A stretch of DNA of 64,000 nucleotides, taken from Marasmitruncus massiliensis (lineage in GTDB: Bacteria > Bacillota > Clostridia > Oscillospirales > Ruminococcaceae). A model generated the notes under the pieces. It was not told where the DNA came from and ran no database searches. It saw nothing but the letters and a program-made list of their open reading frames with translations. Below are positions 24,040-39,515 of the stretch, piece by piece (position 1 is the first letter of the stretch; each line of letters begins with the position of its first letter). The position numbers were made by a program, and so were the translations under genes. The DNA lies in the NCBI RefSeq assembly GCF_900186535.1, contig NZ_FYDE01000005.1, positions 906,895 to 970,894 on the forward strand, given 5' to 3'.

Positions 24040-24726
24040 ATGAAGCAGATTAGCTTGACAGATCAGCCGCGTTTAAAAGAAAAAGTGGAACTGGTGAAGA
24101 GGCATTTATCAGCTGCGGTTTTTGAGAAAATGCAGCCATGCCTCTTTAAAAACGGCGAATTTCTCTGCGTCGAAGGGGAACGCGCGGCGTATCTTTATAT
24201 CATTCTGGACGGCAGGTGCAGGGTCTTTAAAACACTGGAAAACGGAAAAGTCCTGCTGGTCTGCCATTATGAGGACATTCAGGTATTGGGGGAATTTGAA
24301 CTTTTTACCGATTCGATTGCAAAAACCACGATTCAGGCTCTGGGAGATTTTTGCTGCCTTGCAATTCCTGTTTCGGAGTATAGAGAACTGCTTTTAGCAG
24401 ATAATCAGTTTTTACAGTGGGTTTGCCGCCAGACCTGCGAAAAAGTGGAGCGCAACAATCAAACAACCGGAATCAATTTGCTGTATCCGCTGGAACAGCG
24501 GCTGGCAAATTATATCCTTGTCATGCAAAATGACGGGGTGTTTTTCAGCAACTACACGCGCCTGTCCCAATATCTGGGGTGCAGCCACAGGCACCTTTTG
24601 AGGACGCTCGGATTATTATGTAAGAAACAATTTCTGGAAAAAGAGGATGCCGGTTACCGGCTGAAAAACCCGTCCGCATTGAAACAGCTGGCCGGAAACC
24701 TCTTTCAAGCGCAAAAAAAAGCTTGA
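24040..24726 (+). CDS. Crp/Fnr-family transcriptional regulator
   Basis: The 228 residues comprise an N-terminal cyclic-nucleotide-binding-like beta-barrel (about 20-115; YLYIILDGRCRVFKTLENGKVLLV, LGEFELF) and a C-terminal winged HTH (about 155-210; NYTRLSQYLGCSHRHLLRTLGLL). The cAMP-contact residues of E. coli Crp are not obvious and there is no Fnr-type N-terminal Cys cluster, so the ligand is unknown. It lies divergent from two DUF606 transporter genes. The last codons overlap the -35 box of the ilv promoter. Confidence 0.88.
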   Translation: MKQISLTDQPRLKEKVELVKRHLSAAVFEKMQPCLFKNGEFLCVEGERAAYLYIILDGRCRVFKTLENGKVLLVCHYEDIQVLGEFELFTDSIAKTTIQALGDFCCLAIPVSEYRELLLADNQFLQWVCRQTCEKVERNNQTTGINLLYPLEQRLANYILVMQNDGVFFSNYTRLSQYLGCSHRHLLRTLGLLCKKQFLEKEDAGYRLKNPSALKQLAGNLFQAQKKA

Positions 24727-24751
24727 CAATTTGTTTTTCATCCGTTATGAT
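24723..24751 (+). promoter_or_regulatory. Consensus SigA promoter of the ilv leader/operon
   Basis: TTGACA (24723-24728), a 17-base spacer and TATGAT (24746-24751). This is one of the best promoters in the window. The transcription start would be near 24758, placing the leader-peptide ATG about 33 bases into the RNA and ilvA about 320 bases in. Confidence 0.88.
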
Positions 24752-24790
24752 ATCGATAATTTACTTGTAAGTTTGAAAGGACACAGTGTT

Positions 24791-24952
24791 ATGAATTTTA
24801 TGCTGCCCGCCCTTTTTGCCAATATGATTAACGTAGTAGTAAGCGGAATCGTACTATCGATTATTCCGCTTATTATTGTTGTAGTCATTTTGATTAGCAA
24901 GAGGCGAACGAGTGTGTCCTTTCTTCCGGCTCCCGCGGTGAGTATGGAATAA
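24791..24952 (+). CDS. Branched-chain amino-acid leader peptide (candidate attenuator peptide)
   Basis: A 53-codon ORF with SD AAAGGA (24776-24781) nine bases before the ATG. Residues 13-35 contain 18 Val, Ile or Leu codons out of 23, including VVV, LIIVVVILI and IVL runs. The peptide then continues with SKRRTS and a Pro/Ala-rich end. The composition mirrors the ilv leader peptides of Enterobacteria, where ribosome stalling at these codons senses charged tRNA. The position between a consensus promoter and an intrinsic terminator ahead of ilvA fits that role. A small membrane protein is the alternative, since the run is also hydrophobic; the RNA arms argue for a leader. Confidence 0.72.
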   Translation: MNFMLPALFANMINVVVSGIVLSIIPLIIVVVILISKRRTSVSFLPAPAVSME

Positions 24953-25052
24953 AGAACGAAGACATAGAACCTTCGCCTCTGATCGGAAAACGCGGGCGAA
25001 GGGATTCCATAAAAAGGAAGAACCTCCGTCTGTGGATCAGGCGGAGGTTCTT
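24841..25052 (+). promoter_or_regulatory. Alternative RNA arms of the ilv attenuator
   Basis: Several mutually exclusive pairings are visible. A hairpin sits within the Val/Ile run (AAGCGGAAT 24841-24849 with ATTCCGCTT 24863-24871). Arm 1 AGAGGCGAA (24900-24908), just past the Val/Ile codons, pairs with TTCGCCTCT (24972-24980) in arm 2. Arm 2 CCTTCGCC (24970-24977) also pairs with GGCGAAGG (24995-25002). Arm 2 (24966-24984) is a near copy of the terminator 5' arm and can pair with the terminator 3' arm (25035-25051) over 12 plus 5 base pairs. A stalled ribosome would cover arm 1 and free arm 2. Confidence 0.65.
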
Positions 25053-25060
25053 TTATTTTT
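25018..25060 (+). terminator. Attenuator terminator ahead of ilvA
   Basis: A 15-bp stem with one G-T pair (25018-25032 with 25038-25052) and a 5-base loop, then TTTTATTTTT. It ends 15 bases before the ilvA ATG and before its SD, so it can only act as a conditional terminator of the leader transcript. Confidence 0.88.
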
Positions 25061-25075
25061 ATCCGGAGGTGGGTT

Positions 25076-26278
25076 ATGGAATTAAAAGAGATCGAACAGG
25101 CAGCCGCAAGGCTTCGCAATGTTGTGCATAAGACGCCGCTATGTTCCTCGAGGACTTTTTCGGAAATGAGCGGCGCGGAACTGTATCTGAAATGTGAAAA
25201 CCTGCAAAAAACAGGGTCGTTCAAGGTCAGGGGGGCCTATAACAAGATTGCAAAGCTGATGGAAAACGGCCAGACGGTTTCTGTGGTTGCTTCCAGCGCG
25301 GGAAACCACGCGCAGGGCGTTGCTTACGCCTCCGGCGCGGTGGGGATTTCTTCCACGATTGTCATGCCGCGCGGCGCGCCGATTGCGAAAATTTCCGCTA
25401 CCGAGGGTTATGGGGCGCGGGTTGTCCTGCATGGGGACTGCTACGACGACGCCTTTTCGGAAGCAATGGAGATTCAGCAGAAAACGGGGGCGGTGTTTGT
25501 GCATCCCTTTGACGATGGGGATGTCATCGCGGGGCAGGGGACGATCGCTCCGGAAATCCTCCGCGATCTTCCGCAGGTCGATGTGGTGCTGATTCCGGCG
25601 GGCGGCGGAGGGCTTCTCGCGGGAACGGCGGCCTATATCAAGCAGATCAATCCGCGGGTGCGGGTGGTCGGTGTGCAGGCGCAGGGCGCGAATGCAATCG
25701 AGCAGTCTTTTGAGCAGAAGACGTTGGTATCCACAACCCACTCGGCCACCATCGCGGACGGAATCGCGGTGAAAACACCGGGGGAACTGCCGCTGGAACT
25801 GATTCACCGGTATGTCGACGAGGTGGTATCGGTCTCTGAGGAGGAGATTGCGGAAACAGTGCTCCTCCTGCTGGAGCGCAACAAGATGGTGGTTGAACCG
25901 GCGGGCGCGGTATCGCTGGCCGCGGCGCTCCACCAAAAAACCGGGCTGGCCGGCAAGCGGGCGGTATGTCTGCTTTCAGGGGGCAACATGGATGTGAGCA
26001 TGATTCACAAAATCGTGGAAAAAGGACTGGTGACACGCGGCCGGCAGATGAAGTTCCAGACCGTCATGCTGGATGTTCCCGGAAGCCTCCAGCGGTTTTC
26101 TTCTATCATCGCCGGCTGCGGAGCCAATATCATCATGGTGCAGTATGACCGCATGCACGCGGGTTTGCAGCTCAATGAGGTCATTCTTCACATCGCCTGC
26201 GAGGTGAGCGGCAGGGAACATGGGCAAAAGGTCATTCAGCAGCTCGAACAAAACGGCTATCAGACAGCCATGGAATAG
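25076..26278 (+). CDS. ilvA: Threonine ammonia-lyase (threonine deaminase)
   Basis: A PLP enzyme that converts threonine to 2-oxobutanoate, the first step of isoleucine synthesis. The 400 residues show the PLP-lysine block TGSFKVRGAYNKI (near 45-57), SSAGNHAQGVAYA, the glycine loop PAGGGGLLAG and a C-terminal ACT domain (about 325-400). The length matches the single-ACT, shorter form also called TdcB-like. As first gene of the ilv operon it is probably biosynthetic. The SD GGAGGTG lies just after the attenuator T-run. Confidence 0.95.
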   Translation: MELKEIEQAAARLRNVVHKTPLCSSRTFSEMSGAELYLKCENLQKTGSFKVRGAYNKIAKLMENGQTVSVVASSAGNHAQGVAYASGAVGISSTIVMPRGAPIAKISATEGYGARVVLHGDCYDDAFSEAMEIQQKTGAVFVHPFDDGDVIAGQGTIAPEILRDLPQVDVVLIPAGGGGLLAGTAAYIKQINPRVRVVGVQAQGANAIEQSFEQKTLVSTTHSATIADGIAVKTPGELPLELIHRYVDEVVSVSEEEIAETVLLLLERNKMVVEPAGAVSLAAALHQKTGLAGKRAVCLLSGGNMDVSMIHKIVEKGLVTRGRQMKFQTVMLDVPGSLQRFSSIIAGCGANIIMVQYDRMHAGLQLNEVILHIACEVSGREHGQKVIQQLEQNGYQTAME

Positions 26279-26289
26279 GAGGAAACGAC

Positions 26290-27957
26290 ATGCAGATGAC
26301 TGGCGCACAGATTTTAGTGCAATCACTTCTCGATCAGGGTGTGGAAGTGGTATTCGGCTATCCGGGCGGTTCGGTGCTGAATATTTATGATGCCCTGTAT
26401 GAACGGCAAATGGAGCTGCGGCATATCGTAACTTCCCATGAACAGGGCGCCGCGCATGCGGCGGACGGATATGCGCGTTCCACCGGGAAAATCGGTGTCG
26501 TTCTGGCAACCTCGGGGCCGGGGGCCACCAATCTGGTGACAGGGATTGCCACCGCGTACCATGATTCCGTTCCGCTTGTCGCGATTACCGGCAACGTACC
26601 CACCGGGCTGATCGGGCGCGACAGCTTTCAGGAAGTGGATATCGTCGGCATCACCAACCCGATCACCAAGCATAACTACATTGTAAAAGATGTCTGCGAG
26701 CTTGCCGGAATTGTACGGGAAGCGTTTGTGATAGCCAATTCGGGCAGGAAAGGCCCTGTGCTGATTGATATTCCCAAGGACATCACCGCCCAGAAAACGG
26801 AATATAGCAGGCAGCCGGTTTTCGAGCCGCGCAAAAATCCCGCTCCGTCGGAATCGGACTATCAGGTGGCGCTCGAAGCAATCGCACAGGCAAAGCGCCC
26901 CCTGATTTACGCGGGCGGCGGGGTGGTTTTCTCGGACGCATCGGAACTGCTTGTGCAGTTCGCCCACAAAATCAGCGCGCCGGTCTGTGTGAGCATGATG
27001 GGGCTGACGTCGATGCCCTATGACGATCCGCTCTATCTGGGGATGATCGGGATGCATGGCACGGTTACCGCCAATGTGGCGGCGCGTGACTGCGACCTGA
27101 TGATTGCGATCGGTTCCCGTTTTTCCGACCGTGTAGCGGGTAACCGGGAAAAATTCGCGTCCAACGCGCAGATCCTTCATCTTGACATTGACCCGTCTGA
27201 AATTTCGAAAAATGTATCCGCCGGTCTGTCGCTGCTTGGCAGTGCGCGGGAAGTCCTTTCCGAGCTGCTTGCGCGTACGGAGCAAATCTACAATTCGGAG
27301 TGGGTGCACAGCCTGCTCCGACACAAGGCGTACCATGCCCTGCCGAGTGCAATCAACGGGGAAGAGCTGACGCCGCGTGAAATTCTTTTAAAAATCAAAG
27401 GCGCGGCGGGGAAAGACACGGTTGTCGTAACAGATGTGGGGCAGCACCAGATGCTGACCGCTCAGTATTACCCGTTCTCGCAGCCCCGCACGCTGATCAG
27501 CTCCTGCGGGCTTGGAACCATGGGGTACGGCCTCGGGGCGGCGATCGGTGCAAAGGTTGGGAATCCTGACCGGCCGGTAGTGCTGGTTACGGGCGACGGC
27601 AGTTTTCATATGAACCTGAACGAGCTCGCGGTTGCCGTAACGCACCGGCTCCCGATCGTTATCCTGGTCATGAACAACGGCGTGCTCGGCATGGTGCATC
27701 AATGGCAGAAGCTGTTCTATGAGCAGCGGTATGCCTATACCGAACTCAACCGTGCCACGGACTTTGTCAGGCTGGCGGAAGCGTTCGGAGCCGCAGGCAT
27801 GCGGCTGACAGACCGCAGCCAAATTCACAGCACTCTTTCCCGGGCGTTTTCCTGCGGAGGGCCCTGCGTTGTGGACTGCATGATTGACCGCAAGGAGCGG
27901 GTATATCCGATCATTCCGCCCGGCGGAACAGAAGAAGATATGATTTATTCAGATTAG
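26290..27957 (+). CDS. ilvB: Acetolactate synthase, large (catalytic) subunit
   Basis: A ThDP enzyme that joins pyruvate with pyruvate or 2-oxobutanoate, the first common step to Val/Leu and Ile. The 555 residues show GYPGGSVLNIYDAL, the catalytic Glu in SHEQGAAHAADGYAR, GPGATNLVTGIATA, RFSDRVAGN and the ThDP/Mg motif GDGSFHMNLNELAVAVTHRLP with NN further on. The gap from ilvA is 11 bases with an SD AGGAGG. It forms a holoenzyme with the next gene's product. Confidence 0.97.
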   Translation: MQMTGAQILVQSLLDQGVEVVFGYPGGSVLNIYDALYERQMELRHIVTSHEQGAAHAADGYARSTGKIGVVLATSGPGATNLVTGIATAYHDSVPLVAITGNVPTGLIGRDSFQEVDIVGITNPITKHNYIVKDVCELAGIVREAFVIANSGRKGPVLIDIPKDITAQKTEYSRQPVFEPRKNPAPSESDYQVALEAIAQAKRPLIYAGGGVVFSDASELLVQFAHKISAPVCVSMMGLTSMPYDDPLYLGMIGMHGTVTANVAARDCDLMIAIGSRFSDRVAGNREKFASNAQILHLDIDPSEISKNVSAGLSLLGSAREVLSELLARTEQIYNSEWVHSLLRHKAYHALPSAINGEELTPREILLKIKGAAGKDTVVVTDVGQHQMLTAQYYPFSQPRTLISSCGLGTMGYGLGAAIGAKVGNPDRPVVLVTGDGSFHMNLNELAVAVTHRLPIVILVMNNGVLGMVHQWQKLFYEQRYAYTELNRATDFVRLAEAFGAAGMRLTDRSQIHSTLSRAFSCGGPCVVDCMIDRKERVYPIIPPGGTEEDMIYSD

Positions 27958-27967
27958 GGGGAAAGGT

Positions 27968-28495
27968 ATGCAGCAGGGTATTTTATCGATTTTGGTCTCC
28001 AACCATTTCGGTGTTTTGACAAAAATAACCGGACTGTTCGGCAGGCGGGGCTATAATATCAAGGCTTTGTCGGTCGGGGAAACGGAAAACCCGGAGGTAT
28101 CGCGCATCACAGTTTTAACGGAAGGAGACCCCGCGCAGCTGGAACAAATTTATAAACAGGTCTGCAAGCTGGAGGAAGTCAGGGCGGCGGCAATCCTTCC
28201 CGAAGAGCAGCTGATCGAACGGGAACTCCTGCTGGTCAAAGTTTGTCCCGGTGAAAAAGAAACAGGCGCACTGATGGAACTGGTGACAAACAGCGCCGCG
28301 AAAGCGGTTGCGGTGCCGGACGGCGGCGTTATTATCGAGGCAAGCGGCCGGCCGGAACAAATCAATGAGCTTGTGGAGCGGATTCGGTTATTCGGCGTTG
28401 TAGAACTCAGCCGTACCGGCGTCACCGCGCTGCAGGCAACCGGGAAAGCGCTTGTCGACAACGCGTTCCAAATAGGGTATTCAAAATTCAGATAA
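27968..28495 (+). CDS. ilvN: Acetolactate synthase, small (regulatory) subunit
   Basis: The 175-residue regulatory subunit has an N-terminal ACT domain ([33 protein letters not shown]) and a C-terminal ALS_ss_C domain (LLLVKVCPG...[27 protein letters not shown]). It normally activates IlvB and confers valine feedback inhibition. It sits 10 bases after ilvB. The symbol could equally be ilvH. Confidence 0.95.
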
Positions 28496-28511: not shown

Positions 28512-29507
28512 ATGGCAAACATGTATTACGAAAGCGACTGCAAACAGGAACTCTTGAGAGGGAAAACCATAGCGGTCATCGGGTATGGCAGTCAGGGCCA
28601 CGCACATTCGCTCAACCTGAAGGACAGCGGCGTTTCCGTCGTGGTGGGGCTTCGCAAAAATTCCGCCCGCTGGGAAGAGGCAAGCAAGGCCGGGCTTACA
28701 GTGAAGGAGGTCCCGGACGCGGTGCGCGGCGCGGACGCCGTCATGATGCTGGTGCCGGATGAACTGGCGGCGGACGTCTACAAGGAAGCGGTCGCCCCCA
28801 ACCTGAAAGAAGGGGCCACGCTGATGTTCGCACACGGCTTCAATATCCACTTCAATCAGATCGTGCCGCCTGCCGGTGTCGACGTTTCGATGGTGGCGCC
28901 CAAGGGCCCGGGCCATCGGGTACGCGCGGAGTACATGGAGGGGAAGGGTGTTCCCTCACTGATTGCCGTTCATCAGGATGCGTCCGGCAGCGCAAAAGAG
29001 TTCGCTCTGGCATATGCGTGCGCGATCGGCGCAGGCCGCGCGGGAATTTTTGAAACCACGTTCCGGGAAGAAACCGAGACGGACCTGTTCGGTGAGCAGG
29101 CTGTGCTTTGCGGCGGCGTGACAGAATTGATGAAGGCCGGTTTTGAGACACTGGTGGAAGCGGGCTATTCCCCAGAAATGGCATATTTCGAATGCGTGCA
29201 TGAGATGAAACTGATTGTTGACCTCATCAACAGCGGTGGATTCGGCATGATGCGCTATTCCATCAGCGATACGGCGGAATACGGCGATTACTGCACCGGC
29301 AAACGCATCATTACGGAAGACACCAGAAAAGAAATGAAAAAGGTGCTCGCTGAAATCCAAAACGGGACTTTCGCAAGCAGATGGATTTCGGAAAACCGCG
29401 CGGGAGGACGCGCGAGCTTTTTGGCGACGCGGCGTCTGGAAGCGGAACATCCGGTGGAGGTTGTGGGGGCGAAACTTCGCAAAATGATGAGCTGGCTCAA
29501 AAAATAA
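28512..29507 (+). CDS. ilvC: Ketol-acid reductoisomerase (class I)
   Basis: Isomerises and reduces acetolactate or acetohydroxybutyrate with NAD(P)H. At 331 residues it is a class I (short) enzyme. The Rossmann motif [16 protein letters not shown] is near residue 19, followed by [12 protein letters not shown] and [12 protein letters not shown]; the C-terminal knotted domain shows [17 protein letters not shown] and SDTAEYGDY. It is the last gene of the operon, followed by a terminator. ilvD and leu genes are not in the window. Confidence 0.97.
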
Positions 29508-29637: not shown

Positions 29638-29675
29638 ACAAAAAATCCGCTTAAACAGTTCGTTTAAGCGGATTT
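29638..29675 (-). terminator. Terminator of the tRNA-Ser pair
   Basis: A 14-bp perfect stem (29643-29656 with 29662-29675). On the minus strand it immediately follows the CCA end of tRNA-Ser(GCT) and runs into T6. Confidence 0.88.
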
Positions 29676-29765
29676 GGCGGAGATGGAGAGATTCGAACTC
29701 TCGCGCCCGTTTCCAGACCTACTCCCTTAGCAGGGGAGCCCCTTCACCAGCTTGGGTACATCTCC
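29675..29765 (-). tRNA. tRNA-Ser (anticodon GCT)
   Basis: The 91-base minus-strand gene folds as a type II (long variable arm) tRNA. The acceptor GGAGATG pairs with CATCTCC, the discriminator is G and CCA is encoded. The anticodon stem-loop is CCCCT-GCT-AAGGG and the T-arm carries GTTCGAATC. Serine identity fits the long variable arm; GCT reads AGC/AGU. Confidence 0.96.
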
Positions 29766-29801
29766 AGGTGAAAGATAAACATATTTGTATTTTAGAGAAG
29801 A

Positions 29802-29888
29802 TGGCGGAGAGAGTGGGATTCGAACCCACGGCTCTTGCGAGTCACTGGTTTTCAAGACCAGCTCCTTAAACCGCTCGGACATCTCTCC
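29802..29888 (-). tRNA. tRNA-Ser (anticodon TGA)
   Basis: An 87-base type II tRNA on the minus strand, 36 bases upstream of tRNA-Ser(GCT). The acceptor GGAGAGA pairs with TCTCTCC, with G and an encoded CCA. The anticodon loop is CTGGTCT-TGA-AAACCAG. It reads UCA and other UCN codons. The two genes are probably one transcript ending at the terminator 3' of the GCT gene. Confidence 0.96.
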
Positions 29889-30472: not shown

Positions 30473-32014
30473 ATGTTTCTATTGCCTGTGAAGAACGTCA
30501 ATAATTTTAGCAACAAAATGAAAGAGGCTGCGTCGTCCATACTACCGGTTATGCTGCTTGTGCTGGTGGTATGCTTCATTGCGATTCCGATACCGCCGGA
30601 TCTGATGCTGTCCTTTATCATTGGTTCAGTCCTGCTGATCATAGGAATGGGACTTTTTACCCTTGGTGCCGATATGGCTATGACGCCGATTGGAAGGTAT
30701 ATCGGCAGAAAAATGACGAAAACAAAAAATTTATGGCTGATTCTTTTATTGAGCTTCATACTGGGCGTGATGATAACCATATCCGAGCCGGACCTGCAGG
30801 TGCTTGCGGCAAGTGTGCCGCATATCGATACCGGCGTGCTCATCATAACGGTTGCTGTTGGCGTCGGACTCTTTCTGACAATTTGTATGCTGCGCATCAT
30901 CTTTGGCGTTCAGCTGAGATGGCTGCTTTTGGGTTTTTATGCGCTGATATTTGTACTTGCCTGGCTGTCCGACGCCGATTATCTGAGCATTGCATTCGAT
31001 TCCGGCGGTGTTACAACCGGACCGATGACCGTTCCGTTTATCATGGCGCTCGGTGTCGGCGTCGCTTATGTACGAAGTGATATGAGGGCTGAAGAGGATA
31101 GTTTCGGTCTGGTGGCATTATGCTCTATCGGTCCGATATTGGCAGTTCTGGCGTTGGGATTTCTGTATTCCGGCGGGAGCCAAATCGCAGAAGATACCGT
31201 GCTCAAAACCTATGCCGATACCACAGCAATAGGTTTTGGCTATCTGTCCGCATTGCCTAAGTATATGTTGGAAGTCTTTGTGGCGCTGGCGCCGATCGTG
31301 GCGTTTTTCCTCGCCTTTCAGATTGTCGCGCTGAAACTGGAAAAGCGCGTGCTCCAGCGCATATTGATCGGAATTGTCTATACCTATGTCGGTCTCGTGC
31401 TGTTCCTCGTCGGTGTCAATAAAGGATTTTCGCCGCTTGGCACCGCACTTGGCGGAGAACTGGCTATCGGATGGAGACGCTATCTTCTCATACCGCTCGG
31501 TATGCTCATGGGTTGGTTTATCATATCGGCGGAACCGGCGGTGCACGTGCTCAACAAGCAGGTGGAAGAAATCAGCTCTGGCGCCATATCCGCCAAGGCG
31601 ATGGGCCTCAGTCTTTCGATCGCAATTGCGGCGGCAGGCGGACTGGCGATGCTCCGCGTGCTTACCGGCATCTCAATTTTATGGTTTCTTGTGCCCGGAT
31701 ATATCGCCGCATTGGCGCTGAGCTTTTTTGTGCCCCCGATCTTTACCGCTATTGCGTTCGATTCGGGCGGCGTTGCGTCCGGCCCTATGACCGCCACCTT
31801 TATGCTGCCGCTGGCGGTCGGTGCAGGAAATGCGCTGGGCGGCAATATATTGACCGATGCCTTCGGCCTTGTGGCGATGGTGGCGATGATGCCGCTGATC
31901 ACGATACAGGTTATGGGTATGGTATATGTCTTTAAAACAGATACTGAGGATAAGGTTGTACCTGCTGGGGCGTATGACGATCTCGACGTTATCGAACTGT
32001 GGGAGGTAGTCTGA
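30473..32014 (+). CDS. DUF1538 membrane protein (internally duplicated transporter-like)
   Basis: A 513-residue, highly hydrophobic protein with two homologous halves. Each half carries the motif FDSGGVxxGPMT (YLSIAFDSGGVTTGPMTVPF near 180 and AIAFDSGGVASGPMTATF near 430), and a SEPDLQVLA or SAEPAVHVL element precedes each. This matches DUF1538, a family without an assigned substrate; the inverted or tandem repeat with conserved Asp/Gly loops resembles ion or metabolite transporters. The start could be ATG 30473, used here, or TTG 30482, which is better placed behind GGGGGG. It abuts a PII-like gene with no gap. Confidence 0.82.
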   Translation: MFLLPVKNVNNFSNKMKEAASSILPVMLLVLVVCFIAIPIPPDLMLSFIIGSVLLIIGMGLFTLGADMAMTPIGRYIGRKMTKTKNLWLILLLSFILGVMITISEPDLQVLAASVPHIDTGVLIITVAVGVGLFLTICMLRIIFGVQLRWLLLGFYALIFVLAWLSDADYLSIAFDSGGVTTGPMTVPFIMALGVGVAYVRSDMRAEEDSFGLVALCSIGPILAVLALGFLYSGGSQIAEDTVLKTYADTTAIGFGYLSALPKYMLEVFVALAPIVAFFLAFQIVALKLEKRVLQRILIGIVYTYVGLVLFLVGVNKGFSPLGTALGGELAIGWRRYLLIPLGMLMGWFIISAEPAVHVLNKQVEEISSGAISAKAMGLSLSIAIAAAGGLAMLRVLTGISILWFLVPGYIAALALSFFVPPIFTAIAFDSGGVASGPMTATFMLPLAVGAGNALGGNILTDAFGLVAMVAMMPLITIQVMGMVYVFKTDTEDKVVPAGAYDDLDVIELWEVV

Positions 32015-32677
32015 ATGGAACTCAATTACGTTATCTCCATCGTCGACCGCGATAAGGGTGAATATATGGCCTCCATTTGTATGGAGCGTGAGCTCCCGAT
32101 TGTCCTGACGGCGCTGGGCAGGGGAACTGCTACGAAGAAGCTTCTGGACCTGTACGGGCTGGAATCCACCGAAAAGTCAGTAGTGGTGACCATAGCCAGT
32201 GCGAAGAACACAAGGGACCTGATATTGCAGGCAAGAAAAAAGCTTTACATTGATATTCCCGGGAATGGTATTATGCTCTCAATCCCGATAAAAAGTGTTG
32301 GAGGAGGAAAAACATTGGCCTTTTTATCTGATCACGCAACACCTGACAAGTCGCTCCCCCGAATGAATTTTGACCATGAAATGATTGTCGTGATTGCGAA
32401 CGAAGGATACACCGAGCAGGTGATGGATGCGGCGCGAACCGCCGGCGCCATGGGCGGAACCGTTATTCATACGAAGGGCACCGGTGCAAAAAAAGCAGAA
32501 AAATTTTATGGTGTATCCCTTGTAAACGAAAAGGAAATGATTTTTATCGTAGCCAAGTCTTCTGAAAAAGCCGGCATCATATCCAATATCGTTAAAGAAA
32601 CCGGGCCTGACAGTCCGGCGGGTACGATTGTGTTTTCTCTGCCGGTTTCACGTGTCGCAGGGCTTCGTCTGTTATAA
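32015..32677 (+). CDS. PII-like signalling protein, apparent tandem of two PII-like halves
   Basis: At 220 residues it is about twice normal PII length. The second half (about 120-220) has HEMIVVIANEGYTEQVMDAARTAGAMGGTVIHTKGTG and FIVAKSSEKAGIISNIV, a clear PII fold with a short T-loop region. The first half (about 1-105) has VISIVDRDKGEYMASICMERELPIVLTALGRGTAT and a hydrophobic strand pattern suggesting a diverged second PII-like unit. The Tyr of uridylylated PII is not evident. Placed directly behind DUF1538 (start adjacent to the TGA), it probably senses a metabolite or nucleotide and gates that protein, as GlnK does AmtB. Confidence 0.8.
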   Translation: MELNYVISIVDRDKGEYMASICMERELPIVLTALGRGTATKKLLDLYGLESTEKSVVVTIASAKNTRDLILQARKKLYIDIPGNGIMLSIPIKSVGGGKTLAFLSDHATPDKSLPRMNFDHEMIVVIANEGYTEQVMDAARTAGAMGGTVIHTKGTGAKKAEKFYGVSLVNEKEMIFIVAKSSEKAGIISNIVKETGPDSPAGTIVFSLPVSRVAGLRLL

Positions 32678-33060: not shown

Positions 33061-33585
33061 ATGTGTAATAAATGTCTTCCCTGTTGCTGCAATTTGAGTT
33101 TAATAGGCCCTCAGGGCCCTCAGGGTCCTCAGGGACCAGCAGGCCCGCCGGGACCGCCAGCTACGGCATCAGCTTTATCCGGCCTACAGACACAGCTGGT
33201 TGGAAGCGGTGGGACAACTGTTGCAGTTGGCGCAAATGTAATTTTTAATTCTATCGTCAGCAACCCCAGCCCCAATATAACCTATAACGCTGCTACCGGC
33301 GTTTTCACGATAACACAGCCAGGCACTTATTATATTGATTGGTGGGTGAATGCGGATGGCGCCGGTCCGGAAACCACCGTTATTTTTAGTATAGTAGCTT
33401 CGAACGGCCAAACAATTTCCGCGTCTTCACTTTCCCCGGTCACTTCCTTACAGCTAAATGGGCATGCACTTATAACTGTTGCAGCGCCTGCAACATTTTC
33501 TCTTGTTAACAACACCCCGTTTGCAGTCGCTTATGGCGTATCAGCCATCCAGGCAGATTTGGCAATCATTCAGGTAACTGCTTAA
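33061..33585 (+). CDS. Collagen-like, BclA-type spore-surface protein
   Basis: A 174-residue protein with a Cys-rich N-terminus (MCNKCLPCCCNL), six Gly-X-Y triplets from residue 16 (GPQ GPQ GPQ GPA GPP GPP) and a C-terminal beta-rich domain of about 135 residues typical of exosporium/BclA trimerisation heads (SNPSPNITYNAATGVFTITQPGTYYIDWWV). The SD AAAGGAGAG is strong. The SigK-type promoter supports spore-coat or exosporium location. The collagen stretch is unusually short; strain variation in triplet number would be expected. Confidence 0.85.
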   Translation: MCNKCLPCCCNLSLIGPQGPQGPQGPAGPPGPPATASALSGLQTQLVGSGGTTVAVGANVIFNSIVSNPSPNITYNAATGVFTITQPGTYYIDWWVNADGAGPETTVIFSIVASNGQTISASSLSPVTSLQLNGHALITVAAPATFSLVNNTPFAVAYGVSAIQADLAIIQVTA

Positions 33586-37936: not shown

Positions 37937-39160
37937 TTATTCAACGGGAACGGCGTCAAAGCCGGAAAGGTTCTTGCCGCTCTTAGCTTCCGCGGCAGTC
38001 TGCCCCACGTATTCCGGATGCTCTTTGAGGTATTTCCGGTTTTTATAAACACCGATCGTAAGGAAGGGGACGACAATAATGGCGATTCCCAGGTATCCGC
38101 AATAGCCGTAACCGTATTTGATGATTTTGCTGAGCCCCACCGTAGAAACCCCCATGGAAATCATCATGGAAAAACACGATACCACTGCGCGGCGGAAAAC
38201 CGGCTGGCGGATGCCGGAGAGAACTTTCAGGTGTTCAAAGCGCGAAACAAACCCGTAGACGGTGGTAACACCGGTAGAAATGAAGCATAAAAGCAGGGAA
38301 ATGTTATAAAACCAATAGAGAACGGGCATTCCAAGCTGGTTGCAGATATAGAGCGAGGGGAGCGTGGTTTCGCCTGCCGCGGAAAACTCGGGATACCAGC
38401 CGAGCAGCATGATGCAGGAAAGCCCCAGTGCGAAAGCGTTCATGAGAAAGGCGACGGTCATGGCTCTGGATGCGTTACGCCCGTTTTTGAGCGGAGCACC
38501 GCAGGAAATCATGGTTGGAATGACTACCGACTGGAAACCCGCATAGGTGAATGCGTTCAGCAGGGGAGTGCCAAGACCTTTCGAAGCTTGTAACGTGCTG
38601 AAAATGGTTGTGATCTCCGGCAGCCTGGCTTTGACGCCGACTGTAAAAATGATGGCGCAGCAGATCAGAATGCACACGGACATCAGGGTGGAGGCCCTGG
38701 AGACCAGAGATGCCCCAAAAATGGTAAGCGCCAGCAGAATCAGCCCGACAAGAAAGACCGCCGCGCCATAGGAGAGAATCCCCAGCTTTTCAAACAGGGA
38801 AGCCGCTCCGGCAATCACCGCCCCCACGGCGCAAATCACCATGATGTTGAAATAGAGCTCAAAAACCCATTCCAGTTTGTCAAACGGATGGTAAAGGGTC
38901 TGGAACAGTTCCTTATAGCTTTTTAGGCCTCTGGAATTATACATGATCATGCATTCCCGGATGGTCAGCGACAGCAGCGCCATCGAAAGGACTGCCGCGA
39001 GAGGAGCAATCCAGCCATACTGGGCATAATATTGGGTGGCCTGATTACCCGTGGCAAAGCCTCCGCCGGCGTGGGAGCTGAACAGGACACTGGCCACCGC
39101 AAAGACCCCTGCAAATTTCATGCGGGCGGAGATGGCCGCTTTTTGATTGGGATTGGACAT
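37937..39160 (-). CDS. YkvI-type membrane transporter (LeuT/APC-like fold)
   Basis: A 407-residue protein with roughly ten membrane helices. The N-terminal helix carries the broken-helix motif SSHAGGGFATGNQATQYYAQYG, typical of the YkvI group related to amino-acid/cation symporters; no member substrate is firmly assigned to my knowledge. The start is ATG 39160 after GAAAGAGGTG; the frame from 39217 would overlap the T-box terminator. T-box control implies amino-acid transport, with tyrosine the best guess from the specifier. Confidence 0.72.
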   Translation of the reverse strand: MSNPNQKAAISARMKFAGVFAVASVLFSSHAGGGFATGNQATQYYAQYGWIAPLAAVLSMALLSLTIRECMIMYNSRGLKSYKELFQTLYHPFDKLEWVFELYFNIMVICAVGAVIAGAASLFEKLGILSYGAAVFLVGLILLALTIFGASLVSRASTLMSVCILICCAIIFTVGVKARLPEITTIFSTLQASKGLGTPLLNAFTYAGFQSVVIPTMISCGAPLKNGRNASRAMTVAFLMNAFALGLSCIMLLGWYPEFSAAGETTLPSLYICNQLGMPVLYWFYNISLLLCFISTGVTTVYGFVSRFEHLKVLSGIRQPVFRRAVVSCFSMMISMGVSTVGLSKIIKYGYGYCGYLGIAIIVVPFLTIGVYKNRKYLKEHPEYVGQTAAEAKSGKNLSGFDAVPVE

Positions 39161-39214
39161 AACTGACACACCTCTTTCAATGTTAGAAACATGAATCCGC
39201 ACAAACAAGGCAAA

Positions 39215-39515
39215 CAAAAAAAGCCTTTCGCCTCCGGGTATTAAACCCTAAGAGACGAAAGGCTTTACACTTTCGCGATACCACTCTTGTTCATTTCCGT
39301 GGAAATGCACTCACCGGATACGGACGCCATGCATCGTATATCCTGTCACTGTAACGGTTGACCTCCGTATTCACCTACACTTTTTTCAGTGAACCCACTC
39401 CGAGGCCAGTTCGGTATTTCTCCCGATGCTGTTTTTCACCACCCAACAGCTCTCTGCAATCGTTCAAAATCCTACTATTCCTCATCGATGTGTTTGTCGA
39501 TTCAGTTTTCCTGTT
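39215..39515 (-). promoter_or_regulatory. T-box riboswitch (probable Tyr specifier) ahead of the YkvI-type gene
   Basis: On the minus strand the leader shows AGAGAGCTG, GGGTGGTGAAAA, the specifier region GAAATACCGAACTGG (around 39420-39406) and the antiterminator core AGTGGTATCGCGAA (39285-39272), a variant of TGGNACCGCG. A terminator follows (10-bp lower stem, 39221-39230 with 39256-39265, then T7). The likely specifier is UAC (Tyr, 39416-39414); AUA and ACC are the overlapping alternatives. The base after TGG is U, which would pair with discriminator A, as in tRNA-Tyr. Confidence 0.85.

Follow-up and report, generated by a model that had tools for sequence, protein, structure and literature searches.

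Which sensor governs the ilvABNC operon of Marasmitruncus massiliensis? The operon lies in a stretch of 64,000 nucleotides, which is called the window below. T-boxes sense tRNA by binding uncharged tRNA directly, without a peptide. An earlier note on this DNA had proposed another kind of sensor in front of ilvA, a ribosome-mediated attenuator reading Val, Ile and Leu codons, and this proposal has held up: relatives retain the codon run, the arm and the terminator, and leaders pair better with their own arms than with swapped ones. Judged by sequence comparison, the ilvABNC leader is very probably a ribosome-mediated (leader-peptide) transcription attenuator.

The ilvABNC leader and its codon run

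The promoter, Shine–Dalgarno (SD) sequence, ORF, hairpin within the run, arms and terminator described in the earlier note were recovered with the same coordinates and counts. The ilvA, ilvB, ilvN and ilvC genes were identified with NCBIfam equivalog models, all above cut-off. The features, in the numbering of the window, are:

24723–24751 (+), sigma-A type promoter, TTGACA-17-TATGAT, 11 of 12 consensus matches
24776–24781 (+), Shine–Dalgarno sequence for the leader ORF, AAAGGA, 9 nt 5' of the ATG, by direct reading
24791–24952 (+), leader peptide ORF of 53 codons, ATG at 24791, from the ORF list and a homologue in genome G147 of the same family
near 24800–24825, segment 1
24820–24892 (+), imperfect hairpin within the run, part of a long ribosome-free fold; inverted repeat 24820–24849/24863–24892 with 30-nt arms, 73%
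24827–24895 (+), control-codon run, codons 13–35, 18/23 Val/Ile/Leu by codon count
24900–24908 (+), segment 2, AGAGGCGAA, immediately 3' of the run (Lys-Arg-Arg codons), from an inverted repeat and the alignment of relatives
24966–24980 (+), segment 3, in which 24972–24980 pairs with segment 2 (anti-termination) and 24970–24977 with segment 4 (termination)
24990–25009 (+), segment 4, partner of either segment 3 or the 5' arm of the terminator, from an inverted repeat, duplex energy and folding
25016–25054 (+), intrinsic terminator (segments 5 and 6) of 17 pairs, with a T-rich tract behind it up to 25060
25076–26278 (+), ilvA, threonine ammonia-lyase (TIGR01127)
26290–27957 (+), ilvB, acetolactate synthase large subunit (TIGR00118)
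27968–28495 (+), ilvN, acetolactate synthase small subunit (TIGR00119)
28512–29507 (+), ilvC, ketol-acid reductoisomerase (TIGR00465)

The terminator is located between the leader ORF and the first gene, ilvA, and its T-rich tract ends 15 bases 5' of ilvA. The −35 box of the promoter and the stop codon of the gene before it (24040–24726) overlap; that gene encodes a YeiL-like Crp-family regulator with a score below the cut-off of the YeiL model. The mechanical ORF list opens the leader frame at TTG 24731; because this codon sits within the promoter, ATG 24791 was chosen as the start. An 11-nt perfect inverted repeat (24775–24785/24913–24923) allows the SD region of the leader to pair with codons 41–45, which could prevent re-initiation on a finished leader; a by-eye look at the G147 leader found no similar repeat. 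Convergent with the end of ilvC are two tRNA-Ser genes (anticodons GCT and TGA; 29675–29888, −). The region 30473–32674 encodes a DUF1538 protein and then a protein with a C-terminal P-II domain, which are likely a pair, and 33061–33585 encodes a protein of the spore-surface type with a collagen-like repeat (seen by eye) and a BclA C-terminal domain.

Residues 13–35 of the leader peptide include 7 Val, 8 Ile and 3 Leu, i.e. 18 such residues in 23. Not one of 1374 ORFs with ≥200 residues (490,301 windows of 23, in the fetched loci and the window) reaches this density, and this set includes membrane proteins such as the DUF1538 protein. Among 9791 distinct short ORFs two reach it, the leader of the window and that of locus L037 (see below), and the G147 leader, with 17 per 23, is tied with one other short ORF. 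A chance origin of the run was ruled out by these scans together with the count on coding and reverse strands given below. The folding energy of the leader corresponds to a z of −6.35 relative to shuffled sequences. GTA makes up 5 of the 9 Val codons in the leader, compared to 15% in the genes of the window, and one Leu codon is CTA, which has a usage of 1% in those genes. According to excerpts of a modelling paper, codon rarity by itself is insufficient to explain leader codon choice (PMC1183508).

A hydrophobic run followed by Lys/Arg is also found in single-pass membrane segments, and the ORF might encode a small membrane protein (an uptake or enzyme partner) followed by an unrelated, partial terminator. 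This is most improbable given that membrane proteins in the long-ORF set fall short of 18/23, that the peptide has no Pfam or NCBIfam match, that homologous leader peptides differ in their C-terminal thirds whereas arm 2 and the non-coding arm 3 are invariant, and that the swapped-arm test described below came out as it did.

A T-box or another known RNA at the leader was rejected by a covariance-model scan, in which no Rfam family, RF00230 included, reached its threshold there. The ten sub-threshold matches are to miRNA, sRNA and plant RNA models and to SAM-alpha on the minus strand (15 bits versus 36). CodY control was also rejected: there is no match to the CodY-box consensus within 1 kb of the promoter, and the window has 5 matches with 3 mismatches versus 3.34 expected. 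The terminator could still be controlled by an RNA-binding protein or a ligand-binding RNA, with the ORF as a mere translated spacer; this is compatible with the sequence, and undescribed aptamers exist. The Rfam and CodY results speak against it, as does the recurrence, in unlike leaders, of an arm directly after the V/I/L run, and we give it very little credence.

Homologous and unlike leaders

A search with the leader peptide in 297 genomes of the family (E up to 1) gave matches in 110. In addition to the window's own genome, these include a clear homologue in G147 (E 7e-6, 56% identity over residues 3–45), the only genome of its genus, and a match in G007, a genome of the window's genus, at E 0.007; the 107 others have E of at least 0.0095. 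The G147 leader precedes ilvA of an ilvABNC operon, with ilvA and ilvB 72% and 77% identical to those of the window, and the G007 leader precedes ilvB, in an arrangement that differs from the window's. An IlvB scan covered one genome per species (84,980 species), and the best 80 of 595 candidates were taken. Among these 80, L036 is an ilvABNC operon with a leader, and L037 is ilvAB with a leader on a contig that ends within ilvB. At every level from genus through family and order to class, stand-alone ilvA genes (35–68% identity) have no comparable leader; weaker hydrophobic ORFs before ilvA (e.g. at L003, L019, L024 and L213) were dismissed by eye, without a terminator check. Searches for the operon in the order and class returned ilvA loci with no ilvB, ilvN or ilvC in their 1.5-kb flanks.

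Alignment in relatives, which the earlier note had named as a check, found the V/I/L run, the arm behind it and the terminator all kept. When the leaders of the window, G147 and L037 are aligned, two blocks are invariant, AGGCGAA right after the run and, in the non-coding part, CCTTCGCCT; the sequence between them is mostly variable. The 7-nt core of segment 2 is unchanged across the three. The trio displays no covariation because its arms do not vary; the aligned arms pair at 100%.

A mechanical scan for a V/I/L-rich short ORF (8/12 residues) followed by a terminator upstream of ilv was run on 101 upstream regions, namely those of the window, G007, the best-80 IlvB loci and 19 of the 20 ilvC-chosen loci described in the last section (L168, without ilvB, was dropped). 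It found such an arrangement in 11/101 regions on the coding strand and 0/101 on the reverse strand, and in 9 and 0, respectively, at 9/12 residues. The scan misses G007 (7/12) and counts L108, the ORF of which lies far upstream and which was excluded from later tests. Leaders before ilvA or ilvB are found in G147, G007, some other Bacillota and Lentisphaerota.

The arms of nine leaders (window, L036, G007, L042, L061, L065, L069, L090 and L109) are mostly unlike, and these leaders were used for a swapped-arm test. From each leader it took a 36-nt region at the run's end together with the terminator's 5' arm and loop (segment 3 in the window); run ends and arms were picked by hand with the sequences in view. 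Own arms pair at a mean of −14.0 kcal/mol and swapped arms at −9.7 kcal/mol, which none of 20,000 permutations equals; for helix length, p = 0.00095. Minus the window, 4/20,000 permutations are as good. With the window's terminator arm replacing segment 3 the count is 0/20,000, and with regions of 24 and 51 nt it is 20/20,000 and 1/20,000. L042 and L069 fail the helix-length test, L069 fails in energy also, and L090 is middling in helix length, with 5/10 other leaders doing equally well.

Upstream of ilvB in L090, a Lentisphaerae MAG, there are two consecutive V/I-rich leader ORFs, 426 to 98 bases before the gene and each starting with MNT, which are a possible tandem attenuator. L109, from the culture-collection strain Oribacterium sinus DSM 17245, has a compact leader, MQNIWLAIIMILAVIIVLHDNVCLRNATFER, upstream of ilvB, whose arm pairs over 9 bp with the terminator loop, and is a convenient test organism.

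Proposed alternating pairings and the second terminator

The arm pair 24900–24908/24972–24980 is complementary at 9/9 positions, as the earlier note had reported. This pair alone does not block the terminator at 25016–25054: blocking needs 24990–25009 to pair with 25016–25035. The 3:4 stem of the window has no U tract, and therefore 2:3 alone would not prevent termination at 25054. Owing to the likeness of segments 3 and 5, segment 4 is able to pair with either of them. Alternative pairings share segments and are therefore mutually exclusive. The sequences show this directly, and they also show the named elements themselves and how relatives conserve the run, arm 2 and arm 3.

The enterobacterial his attenuator consists of six segments, in which A:B, C:D and E:F alternate with B:C and D:E. 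The pairings proposed for the window leader, 1:2, 3:4 and 5:6 versus 2:3 and 4:5, would follow the same logic, but the his attenuator has His codons, and the 3:4 stem of G147 looks like a terminator in its own right and carries a U tract.

In the proposed mechanism, RNA polymerase would start at a predicted position around 24757, and a ribosome would then translate the 53-codon leader. When charged Val-, Ile- or Leu-tRNA is scarce, the ribosome would stall within codons 13–35. If the starved A site lies no later than codon 33, the leading edge of the ribosome (assumed to lie 12 nt ahead) would leave segment 2 (24900–24908) free to pair with segment 3, which would release segment 4 (24990–25009); the latter would capture the 5' arm of the terminator and permit read-through into ilvA. 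With ample supply, the ribosome would reach the stop codon, segment 2 would be masked or folded onto segment 1, and the 3:4 pair and the terminator 5:6 would form. In this scheme, we infer that the leader is translated, that the ribosome stalls, that transcription terminates or reads through, and that 4:5 serves as a relay. Given an attenuator, the six-segment relay is the somewhat better bet, the alternative being a simpler 2:3 versus 3:4 switch with a second terminator.

The 4:5 duplex has an energy of −22.8 kcal/mol in the window (shuffle mean −15.7; 4/500 shuffles equal or better) and −17.7 kcal/mol in G147 (shuffle mean −11.8; 7/500). For 2:3, shuffles are as good in 330/500 cases in the window, 157/500 in G147 and 102/500 in L037, and fewer than 25/500 are as good in just 3 of 11 leaders: L036 (16), L090 (8) and L109 (5). 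Since shuffles match the 2:3 energy of the window, support for this pairing comes from relatives and not from the window alone.

Folding was also computed for a ribosome placed on each codon in turn, its footprint being assumed, before segment 6 emerges and with pairing across the ribosome allowed. Among the 23 run codons of the window, 15 give 6.6–9.3 pairs of 2:3, and codons 22–25, 31, 32, 34 and 35 give at most 4.7. With the ribosome at the stop codon there are 9.9 pairs of 1:2, 0 of 2:3, 7.4 of 3:4 and 7.8 of 4:5. The 2:3 pairing is also present with the ribosome at codons 1–12 and, in part, at 49–50, and is therefore not run-specific in this model. In L037, 2:3 amounts to ~9 pairs at the majority of the codons sampled between 3 and 31; in G147, sampled at every second codon, 2:3 is found solely at codons 5–13 and weakly at 33. 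In a downstream-only model, where no pairing across the ribosome is allowed and 2:3 thus forms more easily, 8 of the 11 leaders (without L042, L061 and L069) were folded: the window and G147 each form 2:3 at 19/19 V/I/L codons, 7/8 leaders form it at the majority or all of these codons, and L065 gives 0/16. The 4:5 pairing amounts to 13–15 pairs all along the run, compared to the 7.8 at the stop codon and to 13.1 without a ribosome (before segment 6). At full length, the terminator prevails at equilibrium in every ribosome state. As the terminator wins at full length and 4:5 is favoured without a ribosome, the switch must be kinetic. Equilibrium folding thus supports the segment relay in part only.

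The attenuator could also be a four-segment switch, 2:3 versus 3:4 (or versus a pairing of segment 3 and the terminator's far arm), with the terminator at 25016–25054 acting as a separate constitutive brake and no 4:5 relay. L037 has exactly this simple four-segment design. G147 has two terminator-like hairpins in series, since its first terminator, which includes segment 3, carries a U tract of its own. The minimum-energy fold of the window leader joins segment 3 to the far terminator arm, and 4:5 hardly changes along the run. Against these points, the missing U tract of the window's 3:4 stem means that 2:3 alone leaves termination at 25054, and the pairing of segment 4 with the 5' arm of the terminator beats all but the few shuffles counted above in both the window and G147. 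We regard this variant as possible but rather doubtful.

Two probable tRNA sensors and the descent of the operon

T-box control of branched-chain amino acid (BCAA) synthesis has been described in Bacillales and Clostridia and is lacking in staphylococci, Listeria and several streptococci, according to excerpts of PMC2494555. The earlier note had contrasted Enterobacteria, with peptide attenuators at ilv, with Firmicutes, typically with T-boxes. For Clostridia this agrees with the same excerpts, but not for Firmicutes at large: as excerpted, papers on Staphylococcus aureus (PMC5794164) and Listeria (PMC5864092) describe ilv peptide attenuators supported by mutants, and such attenuators are predicted in Lactococcus lactis and Streptococcus (PMC6123439). 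Leader-peptide attenuation of ilv is thus already known in Firmicutes, and the leader of the window is a further case. A description of clostridial ilv peptide leaders was not found in searches of an open-access library, which leaves out most subscription papers.

Compared by description in excerpts of the respective papers, Listeria Rli60 (ilv-leu) is likewise a BCAA-rich leader peptide of a Firmicute ilv operon with a 2:3 anti-terminator versus a 3:4 terminator, a design tested by start-codon, RBS and terminator mutants; unlike the leader described here (53 residues, 18/23 V/I/L, before ilvABNC), it has 13 residues and precedes ilvD (PMC5864092). The window leader also has a probable extra segment pair relative to Rli60. 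The S. aureus ilvD attenuator shares the BCAA-rich short ORF and the terminator, without a T-box, but its peptide has 26 residues with three Ile and five Leu codons and is supported as Leu-responsive, and its anti-terminator is proposed to trap the poly-U tail, unlike in the window (PMC5794164). The Escherichia coli ilvGMEDA and ilvBN leaders are also BCAA-rich (15 BCAAs in 32 residues for ilvGMEDA), with a gene order different from the window's (PMC6123439). The leader of Corynebacterium glutamicum ilvBNC combines a peptide with terminator, anti-terminator and anti-anti-terminator hairpins, but it is actinobacterial, its three hairpins overlap and its control codons are few (PMC11857589). Predicted His leader peptides in Firmicutes likewise stand in place of a T-box or repressor in Bacilli, Eubacteriales and Erysipelotrichales, but govern his genes and not ilv (PMC2965389, PMC9413887).

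The earlier note's contrast with T-boxes in the same genome and family turned out stronger than claimed. The T-box machinery it had placed at 39.2–39.5 kb is the window's single T-box at threshold (39248–39497, −; 132 bits). This T-box precedes a membrane-protein-like ORF (37937–39217, −) with no Pfam match, perhaps an amino-acid transporter. T-boxes (RF00230), absent at the leader, precede ilv genes in the window's family and ilvD and leuA in its genome. In the family, 20 loci were taken by best ilvC match among 238 genomes with such a match, 216 of which lay outside the examination. A T-box motif precedes ilvB or ilvA in 17 of the 18 other loci with ilvB (the exception is L162), and in 11 of the 18 the T-box reaches the Rfam threshold. 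The genome of the window has 13 T-box matches, six of them above cut-off, including the one before leuA (105.9 bits); the one before ilvD, at 92.7 bits, is just below the cut-off of 93. Read by eye from the T-box landmarks, their specifiers look like CTC (Leu) for leuA and ATC (Ile) for ilvD. One pathway thus appears to be split between two tRNA sensors in this genome. In G147, ilvD lies 3' of ilvC on the same strand (1993500–1995113 and 1995173–1996165) and, adjoining it, is therefore within the leader's operon; no leuA was found behind the G147 T-boxes examined. In G007, ilvD is 1.3 kb beyond ilvC, and leuA has a T-box (L228).

A joint reading would have one ribosome's decision passed along alternating pairings to a second terminator (two in series in G147) and, at the same time, the pathway divided, with ilvABNC responding to charged Val/Ile/Leu-tRNA through the ribosome and ilvD and leuA to uncharged Ile- and Leu-tRNA through T-boxes, ilvD standing outside the leader's operon, unlike in G147. 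We offer it tentatively, at a little under even probability.

The IlvB tree contains 47 proteins, with 11 peptide, 23 T-box and 13 other rows, the last hand-picked; it was built quickly and without bootstrap. The window, G147, L037, G007, L036 and one T-box row, G131, group together (SH-aLRT 99). Sixteen T-box rows of the window's family are in a separate group of 18 (support 100), together with two Peptoniphilaceae rows, and six other peptide rows (Bacillota, Lentisphaerota and one unplaced record) are in a third group of 13, mixed with T-box and other rows. The peptide label requires 3 changes on the tree versus 10.0 in shuffles, and the named IlvB neighbours of the window are Bacillota. By this placement, the operon belongs outside the main IlvB line of the family, and its position in the tree suggests that the leader probably came along with it. 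The 'independently evolved' sensor that the earlier note had suggested would be one possibility among others: the leaders follow an IlvB lineage common to other Bacillota, and peptide leaders may have arisen once or several times. The G131 locus (L174) has a T-box in front of its ilvABNC operon, the IlvB of which falls among the peptide-leader rows, and may represent a sensor switch within one operon lineage.

The leaders point to a Bacillota IlvB lineage with recurrent peptide attenuators and a T-box relative, G131, inside the group, and switching between the two tRNA sensors is open to study in these relatives. With both sensors on one pathway in one genome, their sensitivities would be comparable under identical starvation.
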